Program-made: the position numbers and the translations under genes | Notes under the pieces: model-generated | The model's database searches: none | Told to the model about the DNA's origin: nothing | Seen by the model: the letters and a program-made list of their open reading frames with translations, nothing else | Origin: Phytoseiulus persimilis | Taxonomy: Eukaryota > Arthropoda > Arachnida > Mesostigmata > Phytoseiidae | Length of the DNA stretch: 64,000 bases | Direction of reading: 5' to 3' | Assembly: GCA_037576195.1 (NCBI GenBank) | Contig: CM075102.1 | Location: forward strand, 46,992,745-47,056,744 | In this document: piece after piece, positions 2,243-32,888 of the stretch | How the letters are laid out: the number at the start of each line of letters is the position of its first letter | How positions within the stretch are numbered: position 1 is the first letter of the stretch

Positions 2243-3400
2243 CAGGCCTTGCAATGGTTATTCAACCGCGGTTATCAACCGCAATAACCGAGAGCAGATT
2301 GCGGTTATGAGCGCATTTAACCGCATATTTTTGAACGATCCTCCACCGCGAATTCGGACTCAAATCGAGGCTTCATCTCATATGATAAGCGTATGATTCC
2401 TTGGGGAAACGTCGCATTGGCATACTCAGGAGGACTGATATCTGAAAAAGGTATTCGGGAAGTTCCTTCGATTTGACCTCACTCGATTTAGTCAGACGTA
2501 GATCCAGGAACTGTGCTCTCAAGCACCTATGAGAATCGTGATGAAGTCCTTCAACAAAACGGAATCTCTAATGTAGTGGTCATTACCGAGGACGACGCCC
2601 TTCCAAAGACCGCAAGGATGATCCCGGAGCTGGGAGCATTGACTTGGAGTCAACGAAAACTGGAAGCAACTCAAGATAGGACCCAGAGGATAGCTTTCAC
2701 AATGTACGACCGACTCTCGATAAATAACTCGGGAATCGGGACGTCGAATTCACGCGATTGATATCAACCCATCGAAAAAAGCTTGCATTCGAGCCGTCTG
2801 CCCTCACGAAATCGTCCAGAAATTGTCCTTAAAGCCACATCCAAGAGTCCGCATTAGCTTTTTGGCGGGTCATCGGAGGTTGAACGCGGACTATATTCAT
2901 CAGACTTTGGGTTCTTCAGTACAAGATGATCTCTTCAAGATGGGGAAATCGTACGAAAAGTTCCGTCACCTGTGATTCGACAAATGTTCCCGGCCCTATC
3001 TCATCGGATACAGCTGTTTCAAACGGATTCTTTGATGAATGTATTCTGAGATCTCGCAGTGTCCGTGGAATATGGAACCTTCGTTTTGAGAAAAGAGAAG
3101 GAGCTTCCTGAAAATCATGCAAAGTATTCTGTCTCCAGTGTGGAGTTTCCACTGAAACTCTGAGGATGATCTCGGGGATGGGCGATGGCCTGTTCCGATG
3201 TGATCAGGCGTGAGTACGACGGTATAAATGCAGAAGCTGCGTGAAATCACGTCCCCGGGCACTTTTCCATATAACCGCGGTGATTTGCGGTCATCGGCGT
3301 GGTTCTCGATCTTAGATTTGCGGTCAGCCGGACACGGATTTGCGTTTATCGGTTACCCGTACCTCGGTCATTTGCGAAGCTACTCGTAACCTCTCTCATC
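2243..3400 (+). mobile_element. hAT-like non-autonomous element, copy A
   Basis: This stretch is a diverged sister of 16800-17865. They share blocks in the same order: around 2345-2440 with 16810-16905, around 2590-2710 with 17200-17320, and around 2920-3060 with 17440-17575. The 5' end starts CAGGCCTTGCAATGG and is followed by a cluster of CCGCGGTTAT/AACCGC words. The 3' end again has a cluster of GCGGT/CGGTTA words. The start of this copy is the reverse complement of the end of copy B (GCGGTTATTAGCAAGGCCT), so the family has terminal inverted repeats. A CAGG terminus and subterminal GCGGTTA clusters fit hAT elements. No transposase frame is present. The 3' boundary is approximate and no 8-bp target duplication was confirmed. 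Confidence 0.6.
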
Positions 3401-3766
3401 CGTCCCTGCACTCGAGAAAGCTCGTGGAGTCTCGGCGTGACGACTCTTCGAGCTCGGATTTGTTCATTTCAGTTTTCACGTCTTTGTGGTTGAATAACCT
3501 CCTGTCGTGTGTTATCCTGCATTCCGCTCTCCGTTCGTTCCGAGATGCACGTTCTTGAGTGCACGTGGAACATGGATGGCCAATCGTCCCGGGAAACAAA
3601 GACCCGAAGAGTGTTGTAGGCCTTCAGCGACACAAAGTGAGTAGTCGTGCTCATGGATTCTTGAATGAAAATATCGTAGCCCTCATTGTTTCCCTCGTTT
3701 GTGAGTCTCGTACACTCCACAAGTCGATGGACGATTCTAGCTCTGAAACCAGAAGTCTTTGAAGGT
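3401..3766 (+). other. Intergenic leader before the membrane-protein gene
   Basis: No recognisable gene. It lies between the hAT-like element and the ATG at 3767, so it probably holds the promoter and 5' UTR of that gene. No TATA box or other clear promoter motif was assigned. Confidence 0.3.
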
Positions 3767-5895
3767 ATGAACCTGTGGCAGGTTCTCTTCCTGCTGACCC
3801 TCGGGCGGTGCTCTGGAGTATCTGAAACCCTCTTCGATGCATACCCTTTCGATCTGGTGATAAAAATACCCGGTGTGAACCTCAGTAAATACGTGAGTTG
3901 ATGGAAACCTCCAATCAGAGAGGCCGTCTTCTGTTTCCGCATTCGCAGTGCCGGCGATAAAATATTCAGGATGTCGAAGGAGGAACAGTATCGGCCTTCA
4001 CCGTGACTTTGGAGTTTGCTTCCGCCCCTAATGGAGTATCGGACGGGGAGCAGAGAAATCGCCCGCAGTGGTTGCGAATGGACAGTCCAGACTTCACGCT
4101 CGCATGGAATGATTTGTGTCGAATATCCTCCGCAGGTTTTAGAGACGGAAGAAGTGCCATTCGTAGCTAAGAAAGAGATAACCGCCGGTGGCCTCCGCTT
4201 GCGAGGAATTCCCCTAGGAGACCCGGACGATCGTATTTTAGTGAAGTGGGAATCGCCCGAAGGAGAAACGAATCCTGTAGCGATCGAGTTTTCCTTCCTA
4301 AAACTTGACGTGACCGACCAGGGGTGCAAATTGTATCCTGCCGCAGGTGAGTTTCGATTGAGAAGGCATTTCGACTGACGAATCTCTCAACTTCACTTGG
4401 GGCGAAAAACCTCATCTTGTTTCTGACGCGGTCTCCTTTGAATTGCAGTGATCGAGATTGGGGAGTATTCTTTTTATGAGAGCAATCGGGAGAGACTTTT
4501 CGACGCAATGGACACTCTCTCCAAGCGAATCGAATATCCCATGAAACGGATGAAGGTGCAGCCACCGCTGAATCCGAACGAGGTTTATCATGATTTTCTT
4601 AAGTAGTTGGAAATATTCATTTTTTGATCTGGAGGCGAGTTGTGGTAGTAGATCTGGCACGCGACAGGAATGTCAATATACCAATAATCATCCCAGATTC
4701 GTCTGCAGAATTGGCGTCTCGGTCTGATGGCCTCGGAGAATTGTCCGGGTGAAAACTCCACGCAAATATGGACAGCTATCAATCGGATCGTTGAGAAGAT
4801 CCATGGCGACGATATCGGCGAGATTGATGGAGTTTCGTGAGTTCAAAGTTTGAGCTTGGGATATAATGGAGTGTTCATCCAAAGCTTCTGAGTGTGCCGT
4901 AAGTCAAGTCCCCGCGCGGGTTTATATTGATACAGTCCTCCCGTTTCAGACCGAAAGCTCGGGTAACGAAGGAATTCAGTGAAATTTTCCGAAATTTGCC
5001 ACGTCGGCTCGGTCCCAATGAGGGAATCGATCGAGGAATAGCTTTCCCTTCAACTCCAACCAACGGGACGATTGAAGGGCGCTCGAACGACGTCGTGATG
5101 ACGTTGGCGGCAAGCTCCGCTTCATCCTCAACCCTGTCAGCCTCAATCGTAGAACCGATTGAGACATCAACTGAGGTCCGCACAACAACGTCAACTGAGG
5201 TCCCCCCTACAACGACAACCGAGATTTCCACGACGACGTCAACTGAGGTTCCCACTACGACGACAACTGAGGTCCCCACTACAACGTCAACTGAGGTCCC
5301 CACTACAACGCCAACTGAGGTCCCCACTGCAACGTCAACTGAGGTCCCCACGACAACGTCAACTGAGGTCCCCACTACAACGTCAACTGAGGTCCCACTC
5401 ACGACGTCAACTGAGGTCCCACCTACGACGTCAACAAAAGCCCCTGCTGCGAGGACAACCGATACACCGCCCATAATGCCTACTGCCTCGGTGGCCACTT
5501 CCACAACGAGTGAAATTCAGTTTCTGATAGTGACAGAGATCGCTCTTGCCGGCGAGGAGGATGTTGAAACTGCTCGCAGGCTCGATGAAGAAAACCCGGA
5601 AACTTTCATCGAACAAAACTCCGGGGCTTCGGTCGCCATGCCTCTCTTCGCAATCATAGTGCTTCTTGCGATAACATCTGCTGTTGCAGTGTTCACGGTT
5701 GCGAGAGCGAGAAATGTTCATCGGAAAACATTCGTCATAGGCAGTAAGATGCGTGGAAGCAGGAATATACACTTTCCGTTCGAATACCATCCACATCATA
5801 ACGGACGACCACCTGAATTCCTTCATTTTTCAGACGCCTCCCCGGACGAAATCAACGACATAGTGGTTCTCGGCAGTGATGATGTCTTCAACTGA
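3767..5895 (+). CDS. Type I membrane protein with mucin-like stalk (full-length copy 1), seven predicted exons
   Basis: I do not recognise the family. Predicted exons are 3767-3892, 3970-4035, 4136-4346, 4449-4582, 4709-4836, 4950-5743 and 5834-5895. All junctions have GT..AG ends and matching phases, giving 506 residues. The protein begins with a signal peptide (MNLWQVLFLLTLG). Next comes an ectodomain of about 165 residues with few Cys, then a Thr/Ser/Pro stalk of TSTEVPTT repeats (about residues 275-360). A single membrane segment follows (MPLFAIIVLLAITSAVAVF), with a basic stop-transfer and a short acidic tail ending in LGSDDVFN. If the weak donor at 4583 is not used, translation stops at 4604-4606, giving a soluble form of about 187 residues. 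The last 90-bp intron can also be read through. It is the first unit of a tandem duplication. AATAAA lies at 6025. Confidence 0.65.
5160..5445 (+). repeat. 24-bp coding minisatellite (TSTEVPTT repeats)
   Basis: About a dozen tandem copies of a 24-bp unit encode an eight-residue Thr/Ser-Glu-Val-Pro repeat, the predicted O-glycosylated stalk of the membrane protein. Units differ by a few bases. The paralogue at 10041-11045 has only a short, diverged equivalent around 10490-10620, so the array expanded or contracted after duplication. Confidence 0.85.
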
Positions 5896-6274
5896 CGAAC
5901 ATAATGTGATCTTCGCTCGTTCTTTGCCGACTTCAGAGCATCATAGTTCTTTTTTATAATTGAGAGAGTTTTCATCTGTGTCTTGAGCATTTTAACATAA
6001 CTACATTATACTACAGACGAAGAGAATAAATTCTGAGACTTCATCGATGTTTGTCTTAAGATACGGATTTGAGGTTATGGTGTTGATTGGCATGAGGCGG
6101 CAGACGCAGCATCTTTCTCCTAGAGTTTTTCTCCGGATACTCTGAGACGACGCGCGACATTGCAAATATTGGTTTCAGGGACGACGCAAACCCGCTTCGG
6201 CGCCGGTAGTGTTTATCCGTTACCGACTCATGATACAATATATCATCGTATACGTCGCTCAAGTGGGACCGAAA
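5896..6274 (+). other. 3' UTR and flank of membrane gene copy 1
   Basis: Non-coding stretch conserved with 11046-11410. It ends at the left boundary of the foldback insertion; no other gene seen. Confidence 0.5.
6025..6030 (+). terminator. Polyadenylation signal of membrane gene copy 1
   Basis: AATAAA 130 bp after the stop codon. The same hexamer is conserved at 11191-11196 in the duplicated copy. Confidence 0.6.
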
Positions 6275-8014
6275 GGGTCTCGGCACTTCCTCGGCACTTC
6301 TGGCCTTGGGTCGGGGATTCGAATGAGATATATTGTTGCGGATACCTTATCCCAAGAGAACACTTTCTGTCCAGTCGACGGGCTCCTAGCTGCCTTGTTC
6401 TTTTCTATTGCATGAAACATCTTCTGGACCGATGAAAACCGAGCGAGATTCGGAAACTTAAAATGCTCATGTCTCCGTTATCTGAAGGAGTTCAGAGCTC
6501 ATCAAGTGGGTTTTGGAAAGCTCGTGAATCCAGCTTTCCGATGCTCCCTTCAGAGTTCTTCAACGATCAATTCGAATACCTTCAAAATGACCATCTTCAA
6601 AGTGAATGTTTCTGACCCACTTCCTGGAGGTTGACCACTTTCTAGCTTGTGTCATAATATGCCCCCCTTCAGTGCGAGCACAATGCGATGAACAGATCGA
6701 AAAATATTTGGGGGACCAAGGTTAAAAAACTAAAAAACTGTCGTTGGTCACCCTGAAGTCATCGAATTTCATGCTTAAACGCCAGAATATTTGATGGTGG
6801 AAGGCCCCGAGCCAGAGAAATCATATTGTGAGCCGTGGAACACACGGAATCAGCCGCCCAGACACCACAAAGTTTGGTCAGATCGATCCCGGAATCACCC
6901 GCCCATACCCCCAAGAGTATGATCTGACTGGCCCCGGAATCACCCCTCCAGCTTTTAAAAAGTATGGTCAGATTGTTCCCGGAACCACCCCTCTAGACTT
7001 GGAAAGTGATGGTCAGATCGGTCCCTAATAACTCATCCAGGTTTTAAGAAGAATGGTCAGATTGGTCCCGCAATCATCCTTTTGGGCTTTGGGCCTGACA
7101 CAGTCAAATCATTTTGGAGTTTGTACGGGATCGACCAATCTGACCCTACTTTTTAAAAGTCTGGAGGGGTGATTCCGGGACATATCTGACCATACTTCTC
7201 CGAATCTGGAGGGGTGATTCCGGGACCAATCTGACCATACTTCTTAAAACCTGGAGGGGTTATTCCGGGACCGATCTGACCATCACTTTCCAAGTCCAGA
7301 GGGGTGGTTCCGGGAACAATCTGACCATACTTTTTAAAAGCTGAAGGGGTGATTCCAGGGCCAGTCTGGTCATACTTTTGAGGGTCTGGGCGGGTGATTC
7401 CGGGATCGATCTGACCAAACTTTTGGGTGTCTGGGCGGCTGATTCCGTGTGTTCCACGGCTCAGAATATGATGTTCCCTGGCTCGGGGCCTTCCACCATC
7501 AAATATTCTAGAGTTTAAGCATGAAATTCGATGAATTCAGGGTGACCAACGACAGTTTTTTAGTTTTTTAACCTTGGTCCCCCAAATATTTTTTCGATTT
7601 GTTTATCGCATTGTGCTCGCACTGGAGGGGGGCGAGGGCATAATATGAGACAAGCTAGAAAGTGGTCAACCTCCAGGAAGTGGGTTAGAAACATTCACTT
7701 TGAAGATGGTCATTTTGGAGGTATTCGAATTGATCGTTGAAAATCTCTGAAGGGAGCATCGGAAAGCTGGATTCACGAGCTTTCCAAAACCCACTTGATG
7801 AGCTCTGAACTCCTTCAGATAACGGAGACATGAGCATTTCAAGTTTCAGAATCTCGCTCGGTTTTCATCGGTCCAGAAGATGTTTCATGCAATAAAAAAA
7901 AACAAGGCAGCTAGGAGCCCGTCGACTGGACAGAAAGTGTTCTCTTGGGATAAGGTATCCGCAACAATATATCTCATTCGAATCCCCGGCCCAAGGCCAA
8001 GAGTGCCGAGACCC
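6275..8014. mobile_element. 1.74-kb foldback (long inverted repeat) element
   Basis: The two halves are near-perfect reverse complements. The left arm starts GGGTCTCGGCACT at 6275 and the right arm ends AGTGCCGAGACCC at 8014, with a centre near 7090-7115. Each arm is about 800 bp and includes an inner array of roughly 45-60 bp units. The empty site is visible in the second duplication unit: the sequence flanking 6274 and 8015 is contiguous around 11420-11440. So this is an insertion that came after the duplication. There is no transposase frame, so it is non-autonomous. The structure matches foldback-type elements; the family is unknown. The left end has a small internal duplication of CGGCACTTC absent from the right end. 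Confidence 0.85.
6850..7440. repeat. Inner tandem units of the foldback arms
   Basis: Imperfect units of roughly 45-60 bp share the core TGGTCAGAT..GTCCCGGAATCACCC on the left arm and its complement on the right. About five units lie in 6860-7070 and seven in 7125-7440. Internal tandem repeats inside long inverted arms are a known hallmark of foldback elements. Confidence 0.8.
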
Positions 8015-8339
8015 TTTCGTCGTTCTTGCAGATCAAGCCCGGCTCCGGGAAGAAAGCCAGCGGACGCTGTATTCGTCTAGTGATAAGAGGTCGAAGCCCC
8101 CCACGACTTGAACCCCCTAAGTCAAATGAGTCCCGCTCGCTGAAACACTGGATGCATTCATTGTTCCCGACCTGAAGAGCAAATGCTGTAGAATCACAGC
8201 GGTACATATGTTCAAGGGACGCAAGAGCTTCTCGAGATGGAACTTCCACTCGGATGCCCACCGCGGTTCACAAGTCACAAGTCTATCGAGTGAGCTGAGG
8301 AAGCTCAGCAAAGTTCCAGCTCGTGTTTAAACCATACTC

Positions 8340-9330
8340 AAAATCATGCCGTCGAAGAACGCTCCTGTGTACACGCTTGACTTTGACCGCCGGCGACAAA
8401 CCACGTTTCTCCAAAGCGTCTTCCGCACAAGTGAGGATGCTGTTCCGGATTGAACTCGCTATGTGCCCAATGTCGAGCTCGCGAACAACAACAAACTTCG
8501 TTCACGGATTCTGATGGTTTTACAATTGACAAAGAATGTGAAGTCCTAGGCTGGAGTGTCTCTGGAAATGACACAAGATGTCGCAAAAGAAGCTCAAACA
8601 CCTCCGATTGTGGTTGTATATCGGGAAGAGCTCCTTCTTGAACTGCACCGCCGGATGCGAGGCTCTAAGAGGATGGTTCATAAACGGAAACCCAAGGAAT
8701 CTAGATTGCAACAGCCTCCCTCCTCCAACCCTTTCTCGAATCGATCCGCTGTCGTCAACTGCTATCGTTGAAGAATGTGATTTGATTGCAGGTTAGTGAG
8801 AACCGTTGAGTTTGTGTCGTGGTCATAACTGCACCGTGAAACCCGGCTGACGTAGAATCCCTCCCCAAGAGAACACTAGTGCTCGCAACGAGTGATTATC
8901 GTGGGGATTTCCGTCCTGTACTGTCTCAAGCACGAGACAATGAAGTTCCTGGACGTTCGCGAAGATCTGAGTAACCTCGCTTTCCTGTTGGACTTCCTCA
9001 GGCGCCGTCATTCGGAAAAAGAAGCTTACATGCAGGCAAACCTGCCAAAATACTTCGCCATTCTGGAAGAGCTCTAAATGATCCTTGAAAGAGCTTCACA
9101 AGTGATTCGAACGAATTGGGCGTCTATGAAAAAGGCTTTCCGACAGGTTCATCAGCAGTTTTCGACCGTCCGGGAATAACTCATCTTTCCTTAGAACGAG
9201 GACTTTGACCCGCTGAGACTTCTCGGTGCAGGCGGCTTCGGCGCTATCTAAAGAGTTCATTCGGGTGGGGCGATTGTAGGCGGGAACCTAATACGACTGG
9301 AAAGAGTACGACAACCGATGTATGCGACTT
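8340..9330 (+). pseudogene. Kinase pseudogene: truncated 5' half of the kinase at 12090-13876
   Basis: The left duplication unit carries the kinase 5' flank and the first part of its coding region. The block LDVREDLSNLAFLLDFLRRR and the glycine loop LLGAGGFGA are intact. The frame is broken by stops that the other copy lacks: at the codon after EEL (about 9075), after the Val-Arg-Glu block (about 9178), and just past the glycine loop (about 9250). Similarity ends near 9325, before the catalytic loop, which is the right breakpoint of the duplication unit. The gene therefore cannot make a kinase. Confidence 0.85.
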
Positions 9331-9944
9331 CGTGAGCGGGTCAACTGCCGGCGGTCGTCACACAACTCGGGCCATGAACAGTAGATACTATCTCGACGGA
9401 TACCAGTGCCAACAGACATTCACATCTCGACGCGTTTCGAGATACCAATGGCGTCATTCACAAGCCCGTCTTCAATGTCTCTGTTGCAAGTGTATTATCC
9501 GGTTTCATATGCATAGACCTGGTACGCGGTTGCTGGCCTGCGAGAGGCAATCCGCACGGCATGTTCCCCGTTTCTGATGTCATCATTCACGTATGCGACG
9601 ACGGGCGCTGATCGCCTCGACTCCGTTGTCCGATGGACATGAGTGTCGCTCGCGATCGCGTATCATTCGACAACGAGCACTCGTCGATTACTATTTGTTT
9701 CAAGAATCCCTCGTTTTTCCCGATGAAAATTATTCCTTCGGGTGGTCAGTGATACCCAGGGCCCATTGTACGCTTCCATTTCATAACAATCGTCCCACTC
9801 GTTCAGAAGTTGCTTCTGGAAACAGGGGTTCGTGCAGCATTCTAGATTCTAACTGGGATTCTAGGTTTTTCATATCCCACTTCAGGCTGAAACTTCCGAC
9901 GCTTCTACTAAAATCATACTTATCTCTGATAATTCAGCGTGAAA
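9331..9944. other. Unique sequence at the duplication junction
   Basis: About 600 bp lie between the end of the left unit and the start of the right unit and match neither. A clean tandem duplication would join the units directly, so this is an insertion or the trace of a more complex event. Reading frames here have no recognisable product. Confidence 0.5.
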
Positions 9945-10040
9945 AATTCATTTTTTTATCTAGAGGCGAGTTGTGGAGGTAGATCCGGCTTGCGACAGGA
10001 ATGACATTATACCAACAAATCATCCCAGATTCGTCTGCAG

Positions 10041-11045
10041 AATTGGCGTGTCGGTCTGATGGCCTCGGAGGATTGTCCCGGTGAAAACTCCACGCAAATT
10101 TGGACAGCTATCAATCGGATCGTTGTGAAGATCCATGGCGACGATATTGGCGAGATTGATGGAGTTTCGTGAGTTCAAAGTGTGGGCTCGGGATAGAATG
10201 GAGTGTTTATACAAAGCTTCTGAGTGTACCATAAATCAACTCCCCGCGCGGATTGATATTGATACAGTCCTCCCGTTTCAGACCGAAAGCTCGGATAACG
10301 AAGGAATTCAGTGAAATTTTCCGAAATTCGCCACGTCGGCTCGTTCCCAATGAGGGAATCAATCGAGGAATAGCTTTCCCTCCAACTCCAGCCAACAGGA
10401 CGATTGAAGGACGCTCGAACGAAGTCGTGATGACATCGGCGGCAAGCTCCATTTCATCGTCAGCCTCAATCGTGGAACCGATCACGGCGTCAACTGAGGC
10501 CCCCACCTCGACTGTCTCTCCGACGAAAACGTCAATTGAGGTCTCCCCTACAACGTCAACTGGAATCCCAACCACAACGTCCAATGAGGCTCCCATTACT
10601 TCCGCAACAAAAGCCCCTGCTACGAGGACAACCGGAACAGCGGCCAATTCGACAAAGAGTGGAATTCAGTTTCCAACAGTGACAGAGATCGCTCTCGCCG
10701 GCGACGGGGATGTTGAGACTGCTCGAAGGCTCAATGAAGAAAGTCTGGGAACTTTTCTCGAAGAAAACCCCGGACCTTCGGTCGCCATGCCTCTCTTCGC
10801 AATCATCGTGCTTCTTGCGATAACGTCTGCTGTTGCAGTGTTCACGGTTGCGAGAGCAAGAGATGTTCATCGGAAAACATTCATCATCGGCAGTAAGAAG
10901 CGTGAAAACAGGGATATACACTTTCCGTTCAAATACCGTCGGCATCATAACGGAAGACCACCTGAATTCCTTCATTTTTTCAGAGGCCTCCCCGGACGAA
11001 ATCAACGACATAGTGGTTCTCGGCAGTGATGATGTCTCCAACTGA
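10041..11045 (+). CDS. Membrane protein copy 2, 5'-truncated
   Basis: Exons 10041-10168, 10282-10892 and 10984-11045 match the last three exons of copy 1 and give 267 in-frame codons. They cover the segment before the stalk, a short Thr/Ser-rich stalk without the regular TSTEVPTT array, the transmembrane helix (identical MPLFAIIVLLAITSAVAVF) and the tail ending LGSDDVSN. No exon matching the signal peptide or ectodomain of copy 1 is found upstream, as the duplication breakpoint cuts them off. It may be a pseudogene, or use an unseen new 5' exon. Without splicing the last 91-bp intron, the extra T before the acceptor shifts the frame and loses the tail; with splicing the frame is kept. AATAAA at 11191. 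Confidence 0.6.
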
Positions 11046-12089
11046 CGAGCACAATGTGATCTTCTTCGTTCTCTGCCGACTCCAGAGCTTCATCAAGAGT
11101 TCTATTCGAGAAATGAGAGAGTTTTCATCAGTGACTTGAGCATCTTGACAAAGCTACATTATACTACGGACGTACGAGATTGAGTGAGAGAATAAATTCT
11201 GAGACTTCATCGAAATACGGGTCCGAGGTTATGGCATCGATTCCCATAAGGGGGCAGATCGTCGCTTTCTCCTCGAGCTGTTCTCCGAATGATTTGAGAC
11301 GACGCGAGACTTTGCAGAGATGGTTTCCCTGGACGACGCGACTCCGCTTGGTCACCAGTTTCCTTTATCCGTTAACAACTCATAATACATCATCGTATAC
11401 TTTGTTCGGTTGAAACCAAAATTTCGTCGTTTTCGAAGAGCGAGACCGGCTCCGGGCAGTCAGGTCACCGGGCGCATCATTCATATGGTCATGAAAGGTC
11501 GGAACCCTCAACGACTAAGACGCCGCCAGTCAGCTCAGTGCCGCCTGCTGAAACCACCGCGGCTCTTCGACACTGCATGCACTCATGGTTTTCATGGGCT
11601 CAGTTCCCGCAACAGCTCATGTTTGGACCACATGCAAAATCATGCCGTTGAAGAACGCTCCTGTGCACACCCCTGATGTTGACCGCCGGCAACAGACCAC
11701 ATTTCCGCAAAGCGTCTCTCGCATAAATAAGGATGCTGTTTCGAATTGAACTCGCTATGAGCCGGATGTCGAGCTCTCGAACAACAACAACAAACTTCGT
11801 GCACGGATTGTGATGGTTTCACAATCGACAACGAATGTGAAGTCCCAGGCTCAAGTGTCTCTGGAAATGACACAAGATGCCGCAGAAGAAGCTCAAACTT
11901 CTCCGATGGAGGGAATATCTAGGGGAGAGCTCCTTCTTGAACTGCACCGCAGGATGCGAGGCTCCACAAGGATGGTTCTCAGACGGAAACCCAAGTAATC
12001 CGGCTTGCAACAGCCCCCCTCGTCCAATCCTCTCTCGAATCGATTTGCTGTGTCATTTTCTATCGCCAAATACGGTGATTCGATTGCAG
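11046..12089 (+). other. Intergenic region and 5' flank of the kinase gene
   Basis: Conserved with 5896-6274 plus 8015-8820 of the left unit. Several coding-like pieces occur, e.g. 11642-11750 and 11810-11998, but both copies share a stop in the middle and I cannot build a first exon. The polyadenylation signal of membrane copy 2 is at 11191-11196. Confidence 0.4.
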
Positions 12090-13876
12090 GTTGGTGAAAA
12101 CCGTTGAGTTTGTGTTGCGGTCATTCCTGCATCGTGAAACCCGGCTGACGTTGGATCGCTTCCCCAGAGAACACTTTTGCGCGCAACAAGTGATTATCGT
12201 GGGGATTTTTGTCCTGCACGGTCTCCAGCAAGAGAGATTGACGTTTCTGGACGTCCGGGAAGATCTGAGTAACCTGGCTTTCCTGTTGGATTTCCTCAGA
12301 CGCCGTTACCCGAAGGAAGAAGCCTACATGCACGCATACTTGCTGAAATACTTGGCCATTCTAGAAGAGCTCTGTACGATCCTCGAGAGAGCTTCACAAG
12401 TGATTCGAACAAACTGGTCGTCGGTGAAAGAGGCTTTCAGACGAATTCATCAGCAGTCCTCGCCGGTCCGGAAAGAACACATCGTTCCTTTGATCGCAGA
12501 CATCGAGCCGCTGAGACTTCTCGGCGCAGGCGGCTTCGGCGCCATCTACAAAGTTCGTTTGGGCGGGGCACTCGTAGGCGGGAAGCTGATACCACTGGAA
12601 AGAATGCGACAGCCGAAGTATGCCTGTGTTGACAAAATGGTGGCATCGATGGTCAATAGCCCCTTCGTTATAAGGTACTACTCATGCTTCGCCACGGACA
12701 AGGCTTACTGCACCTTGATGGAGTACATCAGAGGAGTCGATCTGAACAGACTCATCAAACACGGCGATCCCTTAGATACGGTAACGATTAAATTGGTATT
12801 AGCGCAGCTGGGCCTAGCAGTACAATACCTGCATTTTCGGGGCTTTATTCATAGAGATATAAAACCAGCGAATATTATGGTTCTCCCCGGCTGTCGCATC
12901 AGGCTCATTGACCTCGATACTTGCAAAGTTTGTACATCTCTATACGGAGACGGTTACACTCGCAGTTTCAAACGAAGAACATATGGAGAATTCCGAGACT
13001 CGGAAATAGCTGGCACATTGGTATTTTTCGCTCCGGAAACTATCACCAGAGAATCCTACGGTCGAGCTGCAGATTGGTGGGCGTTAGGGGTCACAGCTTA
13101 CATCGCGGGTGTGGGAAAACTGCCCTTCAAAGGGAAGGATGAAGAAATTCGGAGGAAAATAGAATCTGCGCGGTATCGAGTTCCGGAGGAGTATCCTGAG
13201 CTTGCTCGTCTGCTTGAGCGCCTCATTCGGAGAGATCCGAAGAAGCGGATCACTACAGCTCGCTTCGAAGAGTATAAGGAGCAGGAAATTTTCGCCGGAG
13301 TCCATTGGGGAAATCTTGATAGAGACTTCCTCTACGACGTCAAGCAGCTGCGAGACTTAATGCAAGGCAACGCGGACGGGACTTTATCCGCGATTCAGCT
13401 TAGTGAGAAGAAACCGAGGAAAAACAAGAAGCTGAGGCCGCAATTGAAATTCAGTGAAGTCACTGTAAGTACTCATGAGCGATTCTGATTGTGAAAGGAA
13501 ATCGCGCTCAGTATCGCTCCCAGGATTTGCTCAGTCGACTCTCTCGCAGGACGTGCCCAAGCACGAGAAGCTCTACACGTTTTTCACAGATTCCTTCTAC
13601 AACTTCATTGCCGCGAGATCGGAAGACCCGAACGGCAAAGCTATTCTAAAGATAGAGGAAGAATACGATTTCATCCCAGAGTTTACTGAGAGACGACGAC
13701 GCGCAAAGTACAAATTTGAGGTACTCCCTTCGGGTATACCCGGTATTCCCAGCCTGCAAACTTGGTTCCTCCCAGAGATTGCAGTGAAAGGGAGCTGGAT
13801 TGCGACCCCACAGACCTTCTCCAGGTTACAATTTTTCGAGACTTGGTCCACAACGAAGGGCGGCCCCGTTGGCTGA
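12090..13876 (+). CDS. Lineage-type Ser/Thr protein kinase (AGC/MAST-like fold) with a DLD motif
   Basis: Large exon 12090-13464 and exon 13550-13876, joined in phase 0 across an 85-bp intron. The true 5' exon is not identified; the main exon begins at an acceptor at 12089. An N-terminal helical region (LDVREDLSNLAFLLDFL) precedes the kinase domain. The domain shows the glycine loop GAGGFG, the candidate ATP Lys in GGKLIPLERM, the catalytic loop HRDIKPANIM, an APE-like FFAPE, and DWWALGVTAY. The magnesium motif is DLD instead of DFG, and the helix-C Glu is not evident. The Lys, the catalytic Asp/Asn and the metal Asp remain, so activity is possible. The C-terminal exon carries FTERRRRAKYKFE. 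The kinase domain has the general shape of AGC/MAST kinases; substrate unknown. AATAAA at 14274. The 5' part is duplicated as a pseudogene at 8340-9330. Confidence 0.8.
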
Positions 13877-14273
13877 GGGACTACGCGCTCTGTAATCTGC
13901 GAAGCATGGTGCTTCCAATGGGATCCGTCGAATGATTCAAACCCTTCTGGGGCATGCTCGCTTCAGAGTGGACGTGCAGCCGCCATTTCAGTTCGGCACG
14001 AATGCGAATACGACTCCGATTTCCCAACTAATTTGTTAAATATGAGCACTCCTCGAGAGCTTTGCTTGCCGCTCCCTCCGCGTTCCTTCCATATCGTATG
14101 GAGTAATCGAATCATCACGTTTTGCAGGACTTCCTGAAGTGGGACAGCTATAATCCCGAGCCTGAAGGTCTAAAATATCAGAGGAACCAAATGGTTGTGT
14201 GTGATGTTCCGCGGCCGACATATTCGTAGCTCATTCGGCCCGAGAAAAGAACCATTTCGTTGCTCGCAATGTG

Positions 14274-14279
14274 AATAAA
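14274..14279 (+). terminator. Likely polyadenylation signal of the kinase gene
   Basis: AATAAA about 400 bp after the kinase stop codon, the first such hexamer downstream. Confidence 0.4.
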
Positions 14280-14340
14280 TTGAGATGATTTCGGCTTAGC
14301 TTCCAGACGGATGGGGATTGAGGGACCTCCGGTTCATCTT

Positions 14341-14580
14341 ATGAAGATTTCTTGTTGGTTCAATATGCTATTCGTTCCCTTGGCGATTGCGACGGATGCG
14401 CTCTCTGCGACCCGCGGCGCTGCAGATGCCTCCACGGAACAACGCTCCACGGAACGGAACGACCCCACTCCGACTGAAGGACACACGTTCCTTCCAATGA
14501 ATCAGAGAATAAGGCAACGGTGTACAGGGTGTCACAGTGAGGCTCGAGCAAATCTCTCTGATTCAGGGCGGGAAGAATGA
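14341..14580 (+). CDS. Possible small secreted protein
   Basis: An 80-codon frame starts MKISCWFNMLFVPLAIATDA, which resembles a signal peptide, followed by a hydrophilic Thr/Glu-rich part and a CTGCH motif. No homologue is recognised and there is no duplicate to test conservation; it could be a chance frame. Confidence 0.25.
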   Translation: MKISCWFNMLFVPLAIATDALSATRGAADASTEQRSTERNDPTPTEGHTFLPMNQRIRQRCTGCHSEARANLSDSGREE

Positions 14581-14689
14581 CGCGTTCAGCTGTCTCTCAA
14601 TTGCGCCAATCGGTAGAGGATTCGCGTTACGTGTTGCGGCTGGAAATGATTTTTATTTTCTTGGATCGATCACATGATGAGTCGGAAAC

Positions 14690-14830
14690 CGTCAAAAGAC
14701 ACTGGATCGACTCCGTACCGGCATGATCTAATGCGAAGAAGGGTCTCACTCACTTGACATTGAACAGAACGTTGATCGCTTCAGAGCTCGAGAAAGGGTT
14801 GTCGGAGAGGTCGAATCGAGGCGGCAACAG
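14690..14830 (+). mobile_element. Partial copy of the foldback/MITE family found in the SLC6 intron
   Basis: The words GTACCGGCATGAT, TCACTTGACATTGA and ATCGCTTCAGAGCTCGAGAA, in this order and spacing, match both arms of the element at 41860-42490. Only one arm is seen here. Boundaries are approximate. Confidence 0.5.
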
Positions 14831-15019
14831 TATCGCCGCGTACAGGGTCTTTAAATTAGGTCGGGACTCTTTCGCCATTTCTCTTCCGACTGTTATTCAA
14901 AGCTCAGTGGGCGTATTTCGATTTTTTTTTTCGGATTTTCTCGGAACTAAGCAGTTGCCTCTGTCGTTCTTCGTTTCATTTAAGTCTCTTTTTTCTGGAA
15001 AGTTGCGATTCTATTCCCT

Positions 15020-18188: not shown

Positions 18189-18715
18189 ATGTTTGTTGTT
18201 CGACTCAGCATCGTGGTAACAGTGATTTCCCTAGCTTTAGCACTTCATTCCGATAGTAGCGCCCTCTCGACTGAAGAGAGAACGAAGTATACTCCAGAGC
18301 AGGATTATTTCTCAGCGTCCGTTGAACACTGGGTTCTTCCTCGATGTGCTAGCTCGCAACACTGCACCATTGCTCGCGGAATCTCGCATCTCAATAATTT
18401 TGAACTGTGAGGCCAAATCATGGCGACGGCCCTTCCCTCACAAACACACCGCTCCTTATGCTGACGACTCATCATTGTAGGTCGAAACTCATCCAGCTGA
18501 AATCTTCCATGGGGAACCGGAATTCTCGAGATATTCCCGGCGGAGGAGAGAGAGCCCTCGATTTTGGAAAGAATTCTCACAATGGGGAGGCCTACCAGAA
18601 ATCTTTTCTAAGCAGCGGTATCCGGAGATGGAATATTCACAATCGACACTTGAGTTTCAATGATAAGGAAATATCGGTTTTCGGATTCGGGTGCAGTTCA
18701 TTCCATGTGGGATAG
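18189..18715 (+). CDS. Candidate secreted peptide precursor, two exons
   Basis: Exon 18189-18406 begins with a strong signal peptide ([19 protein letters not shown]), then a short region with two Cys seven residues apart (PRCASSQHC). It ends at a GTGAGG donor. An acceptor at 18480 gives exon 18481-18715 in phase, ending FGCSSFHVG. An alternative frame of the same exon has a tetra-Arg site ([12 protein letters not shown]), as in peptide precursors, but would need a different upstream junction. No homologue recognised. The 3' end overlaps the 3' end of the convergent fucosidase gene by about 60 bp. Confidence 0.4.
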
Positions 18716-20146
18716 TGCTTTCATCTACAAGCATCGATTTCGTAGCAATCAACCGCGACGCGGCCCGATTGTCGAAGCGTCTTGGTTTAAATCTTGTAGC
18801 GTAGTCGACGCCATGTGAAGGCGTGATCTTCACCGTGAGAATTCCAGATGGACGGCTCTGCGGCAAAGTTATCACAGTTTTTGTTGCACCGAGCTGGAAG
18901 CTGACGATCTCGGCACTCCCGAGGAGAGTGATACTCTCGATTGCGCCGATGGTTTGCGAATTCAACCCGCTAACTTCGACGGTATCTGTTGGCTTCAGTA
19001 TGGTGGCATACACGGCGTTGTTTCTCGTTGTGTACCAAACATTGGGATTCGTTGTATCGTTCTGATGTATCCAGGGTCGTGATTCGTAAATAGCCTCACC
19101 ATTCACTTTCAACCATTGACCCATTTCACGGAGTCGTTCTTCAAATATGGGTTCTATGGTGCCATCTTTCCTCGGCCCAATATTTACTAGCAGATTACCG
19201 TTGCAGCTGACTGTCTGGATGAGAGTTGTCAACAGTTCTTCTGTACTCAAAACATCCGTCAGGTTCATGGTTCGCCTGTAACCCCACGATTCGCGATCGA
19301 GGGTCATCGCGTTTTCCCATTTGTGGGGTAGAAGTACGCCGGGATTGTAGCGGTCCTTGCAGTTGTAGAAGTCGCCGTGAGTGCAGCCGATGCCTATTCC
19401 CCATCGGTCGTGACAAGGACCCGATCTTTCACCGGGCTGTCATTGTACAGCCAGGCCAAGAAATTCGTTGCATTCCAATACACGTCGGGTGCTTCCCAAT
19501 CACCGTCGGACCAGATGATTTCAGGTTCGTAGTCGTTCACCAGCTGGTATAGCTCCGGTAGAGCTTTACGCTCCACGAAGTTTTGAGTCAGGAAGACGTT
19601 CTTCTTGTCTTGAAGGTACATCGGATTGAACCACTCGAAGAGGGAGTGGTAAACTCCGAAGTGGAGTCCTGCTTCGCGAGTTGCTCGTGCCAGTTCCCCG
19701 ACGAGGTCCTTCCGAGGTCCCACGTCCATAGAATTCCAATTGAAGGAAGTTGATGAGGGCCACAGCGTGTATCCCTCGTGATGTTTCGAAGTCAAGACCA
19801 CGTACTTCGCTCCGGCGTCCTCGAAGAGCTCCGCCCATTGTCGCGGGTTGTAGAATTCTGCGGTGAAATCTTTGGCGAAGTCGGCGTAAGTGAATCCTGG
19901 CTTGTAATTCTGCTTCATGAAGTTGACAATGTCCTTGTTACCGGACTTCCAGTATTGCCAAAACCACTCTCCTTCGAAGGACGGCACCGAAAATACTCCC
20001 CAATGGAGAAAGATGCCAATTTTACCTTCGTCGTACCACTTGGGCGCGGGTCGCGTATCCAGGGACTCCCATGTCGGGAGATACCTCTTCGCGCCGAACG
20101 CGGACGTCGTGGTGGCAACCAGCAGCAGCACGGTTCTCAACAACAT
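18657..20146 (-). CDS. Alpha-L-fucosidase (glycoside hydrolase family 29), one frame discontinuity
   Basis: Secreted or lysosomal enzyme that removes alpha-linked fucose from glycans. I start it at 20146 ([18 protein letters not shown], signal peptide) instead of the upstream in-frame Met at 20188. Family blocks in order: [74 protein letters not shown], the nucleophile block EIIWSDGDW, then the C-terminal [16 protein letters not shown] block and beta-sandwich. About 495 residues, normal for the family. Between 19394 and 19420 the frame slips by one base just where VNDRWG is expected, so the gene appears as two frames. All else is intact, so this may be a sequencing error or a very recent lesion. 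Intronless as seen. A dead paralogue lies at 15725-16330. Confidence 0.9.
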
Positions 20147-20189
20147 GTTCTCAGCACGGTTGTCATCGTTTTGATGCCAAAACACCAAC

Positions 20190-22045
20190 CAGTCTTTGGG
20201 GTCATCTGGAACGGCTCTCCAAGCGAGCGAGGGAAATTGACCTAATCTCGGCGATGCAATGAGCTGCCCATCGCGACTTATGGACTCAAGAGACCCACCA
20301 AAGCGGGTAGTGATCGATAGACATCTAACAGCAGACCGAGGATATTCAAAGGCGGCTTTCGGCCGAGTCGAAACTTTGGAGCACCTGAGCTGTTGCGTTC
20401 GCCAGTCCTGCTGATAGAATCATTTCCGGTAAAAGCCATCGGTTCTGTGAAAATATTAGGCAACTGAGGTGAGAATGACGTTATGCTCATACGTGGCTCG
20501 GATCAGAGAGTCTCAATCTCTTTGGCCTGATCACAAGGGAGATAGCGGTTGCGGATCGGAGAGTTTTAAAACCTAAGGATGTTCCAGAGCCTGGCTTGAT
20601 GATGCCGCTAGGGGCGCTCATGATTACTTGTGGAGAGTTTCCCGATTCGCATTCTCTATTAGTGCCTCTTACGCATCGACCGCAATCCATCCCTGTTTGC
20701 ATAGGGAATAATGAGGATTACGCTGGAGCTAGTGAATCATGGGACTCGATTCGACTCTCGGACATGTTGAAGGACACGCAACTGATTTGCGATTCTCAGC
20801 TTCGGAGCTGGAATCGGATGTCAGCTTCGTCAACCTGTCCAATTTGTCGAGCTTCTGACTGCGGTCACGTTCTCCCAGTCTCGTGCGTTCTCAACTGACC
20901 CGTGAGAGTCCCATCGCATGTAATTCCAGGAGGTCAATATGGTTCTGAGTCGATGGGTTTTACCGAACTTCTCGAAAATCAACTGCGACAGGTCTCCCCG
21001 GAGCTCATGCTGGTCCCACCTTCCCTGCTAGTATGGGATAAGCGTACACCGCTCGTTCCACCGCTGTTACGGTTGTTACGGAGGGCCTGAGCGAAGGAAA
21101 CGTAACCTGGTCGATAAGCTCCGTGTGATTTCACTGATTCTCGTCGCCCGATGCGGAGAATTCCCGGAGAGCGAAGTTTAAGCTGACCTGCGAAAAGGAC
21201 TGCAAACGATAGATCTTATTCTGGAACTTCATTCAGTTGAAGATGAAGTCAGCAGTGCGATCCGGGAAGCTTGTTGCATGCCCAGATGGGCTCGGCATCA
21301 GATGAAATGGTGACAAGAATAGCTGTCGAATCGGCACTTCGACAATAGTTGACCGGCGATTCCACCGTCGGAATGCGCTCCCAAGAGAGAAGAGCTTCCT
21401 CTACGGAATATGTACCAAAAAAAAAGGTTTCGTGTGCCAAGCGATGTTTCTAGAATTTTTCCGAAGTGAGTTGTTCCCTTGATACTCTGGAAAAGGTTTC
21501 GAGAGACTTCCGGAATCGATTTGCAGATTATGATTCTTGGTTACGGGAGCATCTCTCTGCTGAGGTGTCCTGGTCACACATCTGGGAAGGCTCTGGGCTA
21601 CGGAAGCAAAACTGACTGTAACCTGACATATATGTAACTTCACAAGAAAAAAACGTCCGGGTTACCTGACAAAGCTTCAGAAGTCGGTTGTTGTGATATG
21701 TTCACCATTCTGAGAACCTTCAACGGAAAAGAGGTCTCTTGGAAGAAAAAACGTGGTTGTTCAAATGCAACGAGTTTATTCGCTCACTCTTAAACGATTT
21801 GAACGGTTTGTTGCGCAACCTTCGGACGAACAATACCTACAAGATGTATACTTTCGTGACGAAGTTCCCCAGGAGATGCACTGGAAGCTCTGACTGAGAA
21901 TAACATCCGCTGAATGAGGAATAACTGCTGATTATCCCACCTGCATCTTTCTAGAGAGCAGAACGTTTTCGGGTCGAGGCTACCCGACAAGTGCCGAGAT
22001 AGGTCTCAACAAACGGAGAAGAATCTTGTGATCGAAAAATCCCGC
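20190..22045. other. Intergenic between fucosidase and G-gamma
   Basis: No gene I can support. A plus-strand frame at 20596-20898 has a few Cys (STCPICRASDC) but lacks the rest of a zinc-binding domain. TTTATT at 21775 is the complement of AATAAA and may be the polyadenylation signal of the G-gamma gene. Confidence 0.3.
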
Positions 22046-28798: not shown

Positions 28799-30483
28799 CT
28801 ATTTGAAAATTTTGCCTTGATTGAACTTCTTGCCACCAAACTGGCCTTCCCAGGCAAGATATTCGTTTACCAGAGCTTTGGTGCTCTCCTCCTTGGGGTC
28901 GAGTTTCTTCCACTGGTAGGATTCGTAGTCGATTTGCCAGTCTTCAGATAGAGTGAAAGCCAGCTCATGACTCCTCCAGACCCAGATGCCAGAAATTGTG
29001 GAGCAGTTGTCTTCTCCAAAGAGACACATCGAGGCGAAGGCGTGCTTCCGCATTTTGTCTAGGCGTTGCATCATTCCGGAAATGAGATTGCAAGACATGA
29101 ACACCTGGGTGAGATCCTCAGGATACTTGTACTCGCAGTACCAGATGGAGTAGTTCTCCGGGTCGAACTTCTGCCAGAAGTAAGGGATAGACACGGCAGT
29201 GTCTTCGTTCGAGTACGAACGTTTGAAGTCGTCCATCACGAAGGTGCCCTTGGGGAACGCGTCGAACGGATCTTTCTTCGGAGCAGCGGCGAGGAACTCA
29301 TCCCCGTCATCAGTAGGTGGCGGAGCTTCTTTCTTCTCTTCCTTCTTCGCCTCTTTCTTCTCTTCCTTCTTGGCTACTTTCTTGTCAGTTTTTTTGCCGG
29401 CATCGCCCCTGCCTTGAATTTCGGCAAAAGTGGCAGCATCGAACTGAGCAGCCTTCTCACAGAGCTTCACTTGACCCACAACTTTTTTCACGTTGGGCTG
29501 GTTCAGGATCGTCTCGAACCACCGGTTCAAGTTGACGTATGGCTTACGGAACGTGGGTTCGAGTACGAGAGTGTACAGGTTCAGTAGGGCGCAGAAGACG
29601 GAAATATCGGCGAGAGAAATTCGCTCTCCAACGAGGAAGGTTTTCGTGAGGAAAACACTGTCAAGGTAAGACAGAATCTTTTTCACCTCGGTTTGAGCCT
29701 TGTCTTGAGCTTGCTTGTTGAAACCCATGATTCCCAAACACGGGAAAGTCCATTGGCTGGCAGGGGGTACGATTTCATTGTCAGCAAAAGAAATCCATTG
29801 CAGGATCTGTGCCTTGTCAGCATCGCTCTTGCCCTTGAGTTCCGCACCGGCTACGTAGTAAGCAATGGCAGCAGCTTCAGTGATGGTCAAACCAGTCTTG
29901 CTTTCGAATGCGGGAACCTTACCTGGAAACAACGAAGCTCCATATTAAGAATTGGCGCTCTCATCTAAGGTGGAGGGATGGCGAGAGTCTGCAGTGTGTT
30001 TCGTTCCCGGAATTCGTCGGTGAGATCACACGAAATATCCGGTTCTCATCCTGAACTACTATAATTCGGCCGATTGAACTTCGTCAGTGTGGCCATTAGC
30101 ATCGGCTAGAGACTCTGACTCAATATGGACCCAATGGTATTGAGCCCACAGGCAGCCTCCGTCTCATCCAAGGCATCGGAGGGGAGACATGCCACCGGCA
30201 CTTCAGAAGCGAAGTTTTGTTCACTAACGAAAGGTGTTTGAGGGCTGCGGCGAAGCGTGTGTATCACATCCAGAGAGAAACTGACTCCAACGTGGCTTCC
30301 GATGTGGTACGTACCGAGGGGAAACTTCGATAGGAAGGCATCCGAGCGGTTGGTTTCACCAAGAACGAAATTCGGGGGCTCTTGATGGACAGTGAGTTTG
30401 GCTTTGCCATACTCTGCAGCGATGAGGATGTTCCTCGAGCGGAAGTTATCCTTGCACGTGTAGAGCGTTCCCTGTGCCGCCAT
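28799..30483 (-). CDS. EEF1G: Translation elongation factor 1 gamma
   Basis: Scaffold subunit of the eEF1B nucleotide-exchange complex that reloads eEF1A with GTP. Exon 1 is 30315-30483 and exon 2 is 28799-29922; the 392-bp intron has GT..AG ends and joins in phase ([11 protein letters not shown]), giving 430 residues, the usual length. Layout: GST-like N-terminal domain ([26 protein letters not shown]), GST-like C-terminal domain ([18 protein letters not shown]), a Lys/Glu linker ([16 protein letters not shown]), and the conserved C-terminal domain with [29 protein letters not shown] and [13 protein letters not shown]. It converges on EXOC7. Confidence 0.97.
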
Positions 30484-31433
30484 CTTCGCTACGACCGGAG
30501 AGGAAAAGAGATCTTACACAGCTCGATCAAGCCGGCCGTTGTCCACTAGCGCAGACGATCCTACAAGCCATCAACAAGAGAGGGTAGGGCCAAGTCCAGA
30601 ATTTCCGGAACAGTTGATTGTTGGAAAGCTAGTTCGAGCTGATTCGCGGCGATTGTCGAGCTGCGACGATTTTGTGGAATGCTCGAGCTAGTTTTATTAG
30701 ATCAGACGGGCTCTCGACTCGAATCGGAGCTCATCAGAGTTGCTGCCTCTCTCTTTTCGAATGGATGAATTTTCCGAGACCATCAAGATAAAACCGTTTG
30801 GCATTACTGCCGTCGTAGGCAACGCGGTTAATCATTAGGTGTTGTTTCCAATAGGAGGGACCCAGGACGACTCCCCATAGTTTCTTCAGTGTCCGTAGCT
30901 CCGCCATCTGTAAGTGTTTGGGCTCTGCATAGATATTTCAGCTTCGCTTCCATCGAGCTGGTCCTCAGTCTCAGCGCCAGCCGGCGTACGGACTACAACG
31001 ACGGCAAGAGCTGAACGCGCAACCCCAAGTTGCCAACGACGCATACTGTTCGTGCGAGAATAAAAAATTACTTCCGCTCTCCGAGTGCAGACCGCTCCGC
31101 ATCGCCTCGTTGGAAACGTCCGCCTCGGATCGAACCATGACATGAGATTATTGATGAAAGTTTCAGAGTGACGAATGAATACATTTTCGAATGCTCTGAG
31201 GGCCGGCAGCTTATCTTGGCTGTCTGTCACGTCAAACCAGCTGTTTACCAACACTGCGTCAGCGGTTCCACGATTGCCGGGAGTTCCGTTCGGAGATCAC
31301 AACGAGATCTACGCATATTTTGTTGTGGGATTTCGTGCAAGCCCAGTGGAGAAGCAGTTTGACGCATATGGAATTGTGGATATAGCCGAAGAAATCGGAG
31401 GCACTCCTTTGTTTGCCACGAAAGATTGTGATA
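30484..31433. other. Divergent promoter region between eEF1G and EIPR1
   Basis: The two genes are head to head with about 950 bp between start codons, so promoters and 5' UTRs of both lie here. A plus-strand ATG at 31175 opens a 133-codon frame that overlaps the EIPR1 start. Confidence 0.4.
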
Positions 31434-31576
31434 ATGACGCAAGCTGCACTCATTCAAGGAATCGAGCTTCACGCTCGGACTCTCGTGCCTTACAGGGACG
31501 GTTCGGATCAGAATACTTTTCTTGTTGGAACGCAATCCCTCCGAGTGGAGAACCACATTCATCGTCTGACATTTGA
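31175..31576 (+). CDS. Upstream overlapping open frame of unknown status
   Basis: It begins with ATG and reads MNTFSNALRAGSLSWLSVTS, resembling a mitochondrial presequence, then PGVPFGDHNEIYAYFVVGF. It runs 143 bases past the EIPR1 ATG in another frame. The composition up to about 31430 is protein-like, but no family is recognised. It may be a 5' exon of a separate transcript, a regulatory upstream frame, or chance. Confidence 0.25.
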   Translation: MNTFSNALRAGSLSWLSVTSNQLFTNTASAVPRLPGVPFGDHNEIYAYFVVGFRASPVEKQFDAYGIVDIAEEIGGTPLFATKDCDNDASCTHSRNRASRSDSRALQGRFGSEYFSCWNAIPPSGEPHSSSDI

Positions 31577-32465
31577 CGACGAAATCTCGAACTCTCTGGA
31601 GAAAAAGAGTTTCCTTCATCCGCTTGGCGAGGTCTGGCACCTAGCGACATACCCTGAGAGTCCCTTGATAGCAACGTGTTTCAATCGAGTCTCAGGGGAA
31701 GGCTGCTCCAAACGCGGCGCAATCTTCAAACTGCGAGATGACGACCTCGAGCTCCTCTACCAAGTCCAGCCTCCCGCCGAGATGGGCACCGAAATTCGGC
31801 AGATTCACTTCGAGCCGTCGACAGGGAAATCCTTCGCAGCCCTGCTCGACTGTCAGGTTGTGTTTCACGACGTCGACACTCAACAGGTCTCACATCGCTC
31901 AAAAATCGAGGCGAAGAACACTCTCAAGACGTTCGCGTTTGGCTTCAACCCCACCGGTGATATTCTCGCGCTCAACAGTGATTCCACGTTGAGGGGACTC
32001 GACACGCGGAATCTACAGGAGTGCTGGTCTGTTCCGAACGCTCACACGAATCAGATACGGAGTCTGGACTTCAATCCGAACAGACCGAATATGTTGGCGA
32101 CGTCGGGCGACGACTGTGCCGTCAAGTTTTGGGACTTGAGGAACCTGGAGAAGCCGGTTGTGAGCATGCGCCACCATTCTCATTGGGTGTGGAGTGTCAG
32201 ATACAATCCCTATTACGACCAGTTGGTGCTGACCGGCAGTTCTGACTCGAAAGTGCACTTGTTGCGGGTGGCCAGTGTGAGCTCGGACGAAGCCAGTCAG
32301 GAGCAAGAAGATGTGCTACTGGAAACATTCGACGACCACGAAGACTCCATCTACTGCACCGAATGGGCACCCAATGATCCTTGGATATTCGCGTCGATTA
32401 GTTATGACGGGCGACTCGTCATAAACCGGGTGCCGAAAGAAGAGAAATTCCGCATCTTGTGTTAG
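31434..32465 (+). CDS. EIPR1: EARP and GARP complex-interacting protein 1 (WD40 protein, TSSC1)
   Basis: A 343-residue WD40 propeller in a single exon. The EIPR1 family partners with the EARP/GARP tethering complexes in endosome recycling and dense-core vesicle traffic. Start chosen at 31434 (MTQAALIQGIELHARTL), which aligns with the family N-terminus. Family blocks: FLVGTQSL, GEVWHLATYP, DSTLRGLDTRN, AHTNQIRSLDFNPN, SGDDCAVKFWDLRN, HSHWVWSVRYNPYYDQLVLT, EDSIYCTEWAPNDPWIFASI and the terminal SYDGRLVINRVPKEEKF. Shorter than the human protein, with the variable loops reduced. Polyadenylation signal AATAAA at 32487. Confidence 0.95.
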   Translation: MTQAALIQGIELHARTLVPYRDGSDQNTFLVGTQSLRVENHIHRLTFDDEISNSLEKKSFLHPLGEVWHLATYPESPLIATCFNRVSGEGCSKRGAIFKLRDDDLELLYQVQPPAEMGTEIRQIHFEPSTGKSFAALLDCQVVFHDVDTQQVSHRSKIEAKNTLKTFAFGFNPTGDILALNSDSTLRGLDTRNLQECWSVPNAHTNQIRSLDFNPNRPNMLATSGDDCAVKFWDLRNLEKPVVSMRHHSHWVWSVRYNPYYDQLVLTGSSDSKVHLLRVASVSSDEASQEQEDVLLETFDDHEDSIYCTEWAPNDPWIFASISYDGRLVINRVPKEEKFRILC

Positions 32466-32492: not shown

Positions 32493-32888
32493 AATGAATC
32501 GTCTTCTTATCATAGACTCACGATTCTCAAGACCGCAAAGTCATTTTCCAACAACGTCAAAGTTTCGAAATCGTCGCCCAGTGCCGAGAAACGGAGGCAC
32601 ACTCGTCTCTGCGGTTGCGAGCAGTTTTCACTCCTGAGAGAAGAACGCGAGTATCTACCCTTTCTCCGGCGCTTTGATTACGGATGGACAGTCACAAACT
32701 CTCCAGCAGGGCCTCTAGTCTTACGAGTCAGGCATACAGTCCCGTCGCTCCTGTTGTGTGCAGTGCGCCCGTTGGAAACGGTCTGGTTTTGGAGAATTTT
32801 TCTTCGGAATATTCAGCAGACGATCCGAATCGCTGATCTTCGATGGAATCCTCATGTGGAAGTTTTTTCTAGGTAGCAGAGTGCAGTC

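Follow-up and report, generated by a model that had tools for sequence, protein, structure and literature searches.

A tandem duplication across a membrane-protein gene and a kinase gene in Phytoseiulus persimilis, and its later history

How do two neighbouring genes come to stand as one whole and one broken copy each, in the order whole membrane-protein gene, half kinase gene, headless membrane-protein gene and whole kinase gene? The question is raised by positions 3767–13876 of a 64,000-nucleotide stretch of Phytoseiulus persimilis DNA (Mesostigmata; Phytoseiidae; GenBank assembly GCA_037576195.1, contig CM075102.1, forward-strand positions 46,992,745 to 47,056,744), the whole of which is called the window here. 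A first-pass annotation had read the locus as a tandem duplication of two units, each starting in the membrane-protein gene (M) and ending in the kinase gene (K), and that much of it agrees with our analysis. We consider it probable that a single tandem duplication was followed by decay of the inner kinase half (K1), entry of a foldback transposon and gene conversion between the two membrane-protein copies (M1 and M2). The event itself is an ordinary exon-level tandem duplication, and its later history is moderately instructive. What is new here is the foldback element in unit 1, the step in divergence along the units, the pseudogene state of K1, the retention, under our exon model, of splice sites and frame in M2, and the relative of the junction DNA elsewhere in the genome.

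The two units and their edges

A BLASTN comparison of positions 3000–15000 with the window resolves the direct repeat into four collinear pieces (71–85% identity, E from 3.8e-10 to 0), which form two units lying head-to-tail across two pairs of genes:

4609–9325, + strand, duplication unit 1, holding a presumably later foldback insertion (BLASTN and edge alignment)
9940–12623, + strand, duplication unit 2 (BLASTN and edge alignment)
4610–5291 and 9941–10632, repeat piece 1, 85% identity (BLASTN)
5309–6253 and 10488–11400, repeat piece 2, 79% identity (BLASTN)
8015–8146 and 11422–11554, repeat piece 3, 71% identity (BLASTN)
8317–9325 and 11613–12623, repeat piece 4, 83% identity (BLASTN)
3767–5895, + strand, M1, intact membrane-protein gene in a seven-exon model made by eye (exons 3767–3892, 3970–4035, 4136–4346, 4449–4582, 4709–4836, 4950–5743 and 5834–5895, edges by eye)
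8514–9325, + strand, K1, 5' half of the kinase gene, a pseudogene, cut off within the catalytic domain
10041–11045, + strand, M2, headless membrane-protein gene with the equivalents of M1 exons 5–7 (exons 10041–10168, 10282–10892 and 10984–11045; by this model the frame is open and no splice site is lost)
11813–13876, + strand, K2, intact AGC-type protein kinase gene, 627 aa (exons 11813–11994, 12090–13464 and 13550–13876)
9326–9939, no strand, junction DNA, 614 bp, no local homology (alignment and genome search)

Homology between the units, with edges set by alignment, begins at about 4609/9940 and ends at about 9325/12623, within about five bases of where it had been placed before. It does not run on past these breakpoints: in about 400 bp beyond the left edge no homology was found (65 of 200 shuffles scored as high), nor in about 400 bp beyond the right edge (40 of 200), while none of 200 shuffles scored as high in a control inside the repeat. 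The left break falls in intron 4 of M1 and the right break early in the catalytic domain of K2, and homology thus stops within both genes. Since M lies upstream of K on the same strand and the duplicated segment runs from inside the one to inside the other, the outer copies are whole and the inner copies are cut: M is whole on the left, K is whole on the right, and the 5' half of K and the 3' half of M lie between them. The frames read accordingly as a full M, a half K, a headless M and a full K, as had been described; a reciprocal truncation, listed as a finding of its own, is unneeded because the geometry of the duplication alone gives this map, and nothing needed to be kept for one intact copy of each gene to survive, which is a matter of geometry and not of selection. 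Once the roughly 1.74 kb of the foldback in unit 1 is discounted, the copied segment, from M intron 4 across the spacer to the K catalytic domain, is nearer 2.7–3 kb, and it would have been copied in a single step. The units are not joined directly, as 614 bp of unrelated DNA lie between them; such interposed DNA does not exclude a tandem duplication, and the locus is one in the wide sense.

Could the assembly instead have created the two units, by error or by setting two alleles in tandem? We regard this as very improbable and found nothing in its favour. The copies differ at 361 of 2413 aligned sites (the threonine/serine repeat and 8141–8316 excluded), K1 carries lesions of its own and the foldback stands in one unit only. 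Moreover, in the genome searched (181 Mb in 127 contigs, the window lying on the chromosome-size contig C2), no third close copy of the duplicated segment was found on another contig among the best candidates, which were those scored. A 591-bp M segment matches two places, both in the window; the C-terminal M protein matches M1 and M2 strongly, and its other listed match covers a threonine-rich stretch only (query 84–189, E = 1e-4, 31%). For the kinase, with 97 of 232 candidates scored, K1 alone is a close partial copy (70%), and the other matches among the 98 listed reach at most 57% identity. Judging by the roughly 28% difference at spacer sites, the duplication is old.

The inner kinase half and the joint

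K2 is, on its sequence, an AGC-type protein kinase: its kinase domain has a Pfam Pkinase match at 2.3e-40, and its best matches among solved structures are RSK, PKN, PKA, PDK1 and Akt, with RSK first (best 60 of 741). Its likeness to the AGC kinases, the N-terminal kinase domain of RSK and its relatives, lies in these closest solved structures. The magnesium-binding motif of kinases is DFG; K2 differs in having, by eye, DLD at this place, and also in its N-terminal region, which is its own and is found in several paralogues of the same genome. The start of K2 exon 2 is backed by paralogue matches. Five kinase paralogues elsewhere in the genome (L022, L023, L025, L029 and L032) share part of this N-terminal region, and some of the paralogue matches hold stops, which may be introns or decay. 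Together with K2, these paralogues possibly form a lineage-specific family of AGC-like kinases.

K1 is a pseudogene that decayed after the duplication. It keeps the start codon and has no exon frameshift, but it has lost the donor of exon 1 and has eight in-frame stops in 238 codons (four TAA, four TAG and no TGA). A neutral simulation with 60–120 substitutions predicts 2.1–3.8 stops, and eight were reached in 0 to 3.5% of 2000 runs; the excess may be due to chance, to changes on the K2 side or to active loss. Between K1 and K2, omega is 0.48 (95% bootstrap 0.32–0.74) on 230 codons and 0.39 (0.25–0.66) in the exon-2 part alone.

The DNA at the joint shows no sign of the missing gene parts. That it might be the decayed head of M2 was rejected, as in Smith-Waterman comparisons of the two strands with the 5' side of M1 shuffled sequences equalled its score in 78 and 13 cases out of 100; that it might be the decayed tail of K1 was rejected likewise against the 3' side of K2 (90 and 12 of 100). 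By the same method, pieces known to be homologous and neutral reach 95 and 185, against 25–35 for the junction tests. The junction has no homology either with the foldback or with 8013–8316 (25 to 81 of 100 shuffles as high), and Rfam gave no match at gathering scores in 3000–15000. It does have relatives elsewhere. Positions 9427–9759 (about 330 bp) are 71% identical to C1:45060556–45060867 (L054:3557–3868), with 64 of 306 ungapped sites differing (21%, somewhat below the 28% of the spacer); a 40-base piece is 90% identical to C2:3684598–3684637, and a weaker relative lies at about C4:4717.7–4717.9 kb (61% over 202 columns). A resemblance by eye of the C1 relative to residues of M exons 1–2 was unsupported by a genome search with the M head, in which all eight matches (E up to 1) fell in the window's two M copies. 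To go by these relatives, the junction piece appears to be a remnant of an old low-copy repeat. It could also have been copied from the C1 relative near the time of the duplication, but the weaker C4 relative makes the old repeat at least as likely.

The 614 bp may have reached the joint when it was formed, as filler made at the event, or afterwards, as a later insertion or as the scar of a later deletion. The last possibility belongs to a history in two steps, in which the whole M–K pair was first duplicated (M1-K1-M2-K2); K1 would then have lost its 3' part and M2 its 5' part to a later deletion, whose scar would hold the foreign DNA of about 614 bp. Its final map would be identical, a piece of dispersed repeat does lie at the joint, and the kinase omega values, for the whole and for exon 2, tolerate a K1 that was once complete and constrained. 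It invokes two events where one suffices, however, and the junction holds no trace of the 3' part of K or the 5' part of M, which is what is expected if those parts were never duplicated. We thus hold this history to be unlikely and prefer the single duplication. The junction had earlier been taken to show that the event was not a simple one: there is indeed more here than a blunt head-to-tail join, but the extra DNA may stem from the event itself or mark a later insertion or deletion.

Foldback entry and uneven divergence

Two features of the units had been missed, one of them an insertion in unit 1, whose edges had been given correctly, and the other a step in divergence along the copies:

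6275–8014, no strand, foldback element with long terminal inverted repeats, confined to unit 1 (BLASTN, arm alignment and genome search)
4609–6067 versus 9940–11221, no strand, low-divergence tract (about 11% at near-neutral sites; about 27% in the spacer and K third positions)

The foldback, about 1.74 kb long, consists of two inverted arms of about 0.8 kb each, which differ at 38 of 792 ungapped sites (95% identical). It is a member of a multicopy, dispersed family: a search with one arm found at least 73 matching stretches (arms counted apart) in about 30 other places on C1–C4, with 40 of 1919 candidates scored and the places counted by hand. Its ends were compared with those of other copies (11 loci submitted and 10 printed, including the window's own copy; L013 has no arm pair). 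AAAGGG stands first at nine of ten left ends (L014 unread) and CCCTTT last at six of nine right ends (L017 has none; the other three differ by one base). Foldback or long terminal-inverted-repeat non-autonomous DNA transposons are a known class, which the element resembles in being nearly all inverted arms over its 1.74 kb and in being dispersed in this genome; no target-site duplication was recognised at its ends. The matching site in unit 2 (11421/11422) is uninterrupted, 11418–11424 reading AAAATTT, and the AAA and TTT that flank the foldback stand joined there as AAATTT. Because unit 2 reads straight through, the foldback would have entered the unit 1 spacer later than the duplication, unless it was cleanly excised from unit 2.

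For the divergence we defined a near-neutral set made up of the M introns, the spacer and the third positions of codons in M and, from 12181 onward, in K, the columns excluding the threonine/serine repeat (5154–5511) and 8141–8316; the first 13 bases of the foldback (6275–6287) are still in the left piece of these alignments, which have a 14-base gap there. Left of 6067/11221 the copies differ at 73 of 666 near-neutral sites (about 11%) and right of it at 130 of 474 (about 27%), the counts for all aligned sites being 100/1071 and 261/1342. The likelihood ratio of this change-point was reached by none of 5000 permutations, for the near-neutral set and for all 2413 sites alike. When the M and spacer sites are taken by themselves, the step has a 2-unit support interval of 6041–6082. 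The M introns differ at 33 of 303 sites, as low as the whole M tract (73/660), and the spacer at 93 of 333. One frozen and one neutral copy would predict 15.6%, and the M tract lies below this (P = 0.0005), as do its introns alone (P = 0.012).

Such a step along collinear copies suggests later gene conversion between M1 and M2 as its simplest account. Conversion would have evened out the M sequence common to both units (exons, introns and 3' end) as far as about 6060, bringing its divergence to about a third of that of the spacer.

The step might instead arise because both copies of the M transcript are under selection or mutate slowly. An AATAAA signal is retained in both (6025 in M1 and 11191 in M2), and the step lies about 10–50 bases beyond it; the splice sites and frame of M2 are intact under the seven-exon model, and the chance of such a frame under assumed indel rates is 0.017–0.080 at 45 neutral substitutions, half of the observed number (0.0045–0.229 over eight settings). 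The 5' flank of K, too, lies below the spacer. Yet divergence in the introns and at third positions is as low as elsewhere in M, M2 has no start region, and changes of amino acid are not rare, omega between the two M copies being 0.58 (0.37–0.93, 500 bootstraps) on 266 codons and 0.57 (95% bootstrap 0.32–1.03) on the 207 left when the threonine/serine repeat (59 codons) is dropped, a value that could be obtained from one constrained and one free copy. Taken together, this makes constraint on the transcript a doubtful cause of the step.

Several points nevertheless weigh against the account of duplication and conversion that we prefer. That the step comes so soon after the M transcript ends is a coincidence under conversion and not under transcript-linked constraint, and the K parts outside the near-neutral set are lower than the spacer (5' flank 30/197, exon 1 25/182 and intron 1 20/95). 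Both observations keep regional constraint, or differences in mutation rate, in play as a cause of the step. The kinase omega leaves room for a K1 that was complete and constrained at first, and the locus offers one pair of copies, with no outgroup to polarise or date the steps.

The headless membrane-protein gene and what the locus means

The exon model of M1 is backed by exon-by-exon matches and by the spliced frame of exons 5–7, exons 1–4 having been placed by eye with the help of the matches. By this model the protein has a signal-peptide-like start, a threonine/serine-rich stalk and one hydrophobic segment; Pfam gave no family above the cut-off in the pieces scanned (4007–4375 and 4903–5892). 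Exons 1–4 lie left of the break and exons 5–7 within unit 1. With the break in intron 4, M2 is without the signal peptide, the ectodomain and the first 179 codons, as counted from the exon model. Exons 5–7, when spliced, are open in both copies (327 codons in M1 and 266 in M2), which end alike and have kept their splice sites. In the array that encodes the stalk (5154–5511), M1 is longer than M2 by 61 codons over the shared exons, all in frame, which is fast repeat-length change.

The clean frame of M2 hangs on the last intron. In M1 this intron (5744–5833, 90 bp) is open in frame, and M1 can be read without splicing there; were it exonic, its 91-bp counterpart in M2 would shift the frame and give another C-terminus (open reading frame 10235–11029), which counts against a clean M2 frame. 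The GTAAGA donor and the TTTTTCAG acceptor, both seen by eye, incline us to read 5744–5833 as an intron. With seven exons as modelled, the clean frame reported for the headless gene thus stands. It may, however, have been renewed by conversion from M1, and it does not demonstrate selection.

Could M2 have acquired a new head? A single-exon scan of 8317–10035, looking for ATG starts followed by a good splice donor in matching phase (multi-exon and untranslated 5' ends left out), found no new signal-peptide exon; its one candidate has eight residues, too short for a hydrophobicity score, and 30 random stretches of the window hold a mean of 2.1 such candidates, of which 0.47 have a hydrophobic start. 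Probably M2 is a fragment with a frame refreshed by conversion. Having neither signal peptide nor ectodomain, and a clean frame that would be due in part to recent conversion, it is most likely without function. We can also imagine, as an improbable alternative, that M2 is a working young gene, in which the membrane and cytoplasmic exons of M would be expressed under the kinase promoter together with captured junction DNA. The K1 half would then be merely the promoter and 5' region of M2, with repeated conversion by M1 keeping the transmembrane and tail exons in step.

Farther along the window there are four long open frames, which we assign by eye:

18657–20419, − strand, presumably alpha-L-fucosidase-like
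28799–29944, − strand, presumably elongation factor 1-gamma-like
31386–32465, + strand, presumably WD40 protein-like
32877–34313, + strand, presumably class III aminotransferase-like

A literature search returned no paper on this locus, which says little, as the queries could not name it. The closest comparison is with tandem duplications in Drosophila yakuba, for which altered expression through chimeric structures, as well as 30 de novo gene structures, has been reported (PMC5460883). In both cases a tandem duplication can join parts of different genes, and the locus is of the exon-shuffling type described there, with breaks inside genes, outer copies whole and inner copies joined; it differs in that it is old, has extra DNA at its joint, has a dead inner kinase half and is known from sequence alone. 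The likeness of M1 and M2 to segmental duplicates with interlocus gene conversion (PMC3790853) lies in the exchange of sequence after duplication, which would here be read from a divergence step on collinear copies; the difference is that we have one pair and no outgroup, and that the case is made from divergence.

The locus is a compact example of how a single tandem duplication across two genes would give one whole and one broken copy of each. It also illustrates that a broken copy, after later conversion, can seem younger and less damaged than it really is. A clean reading frame alone is thus no ground for reading selection into such a copy.

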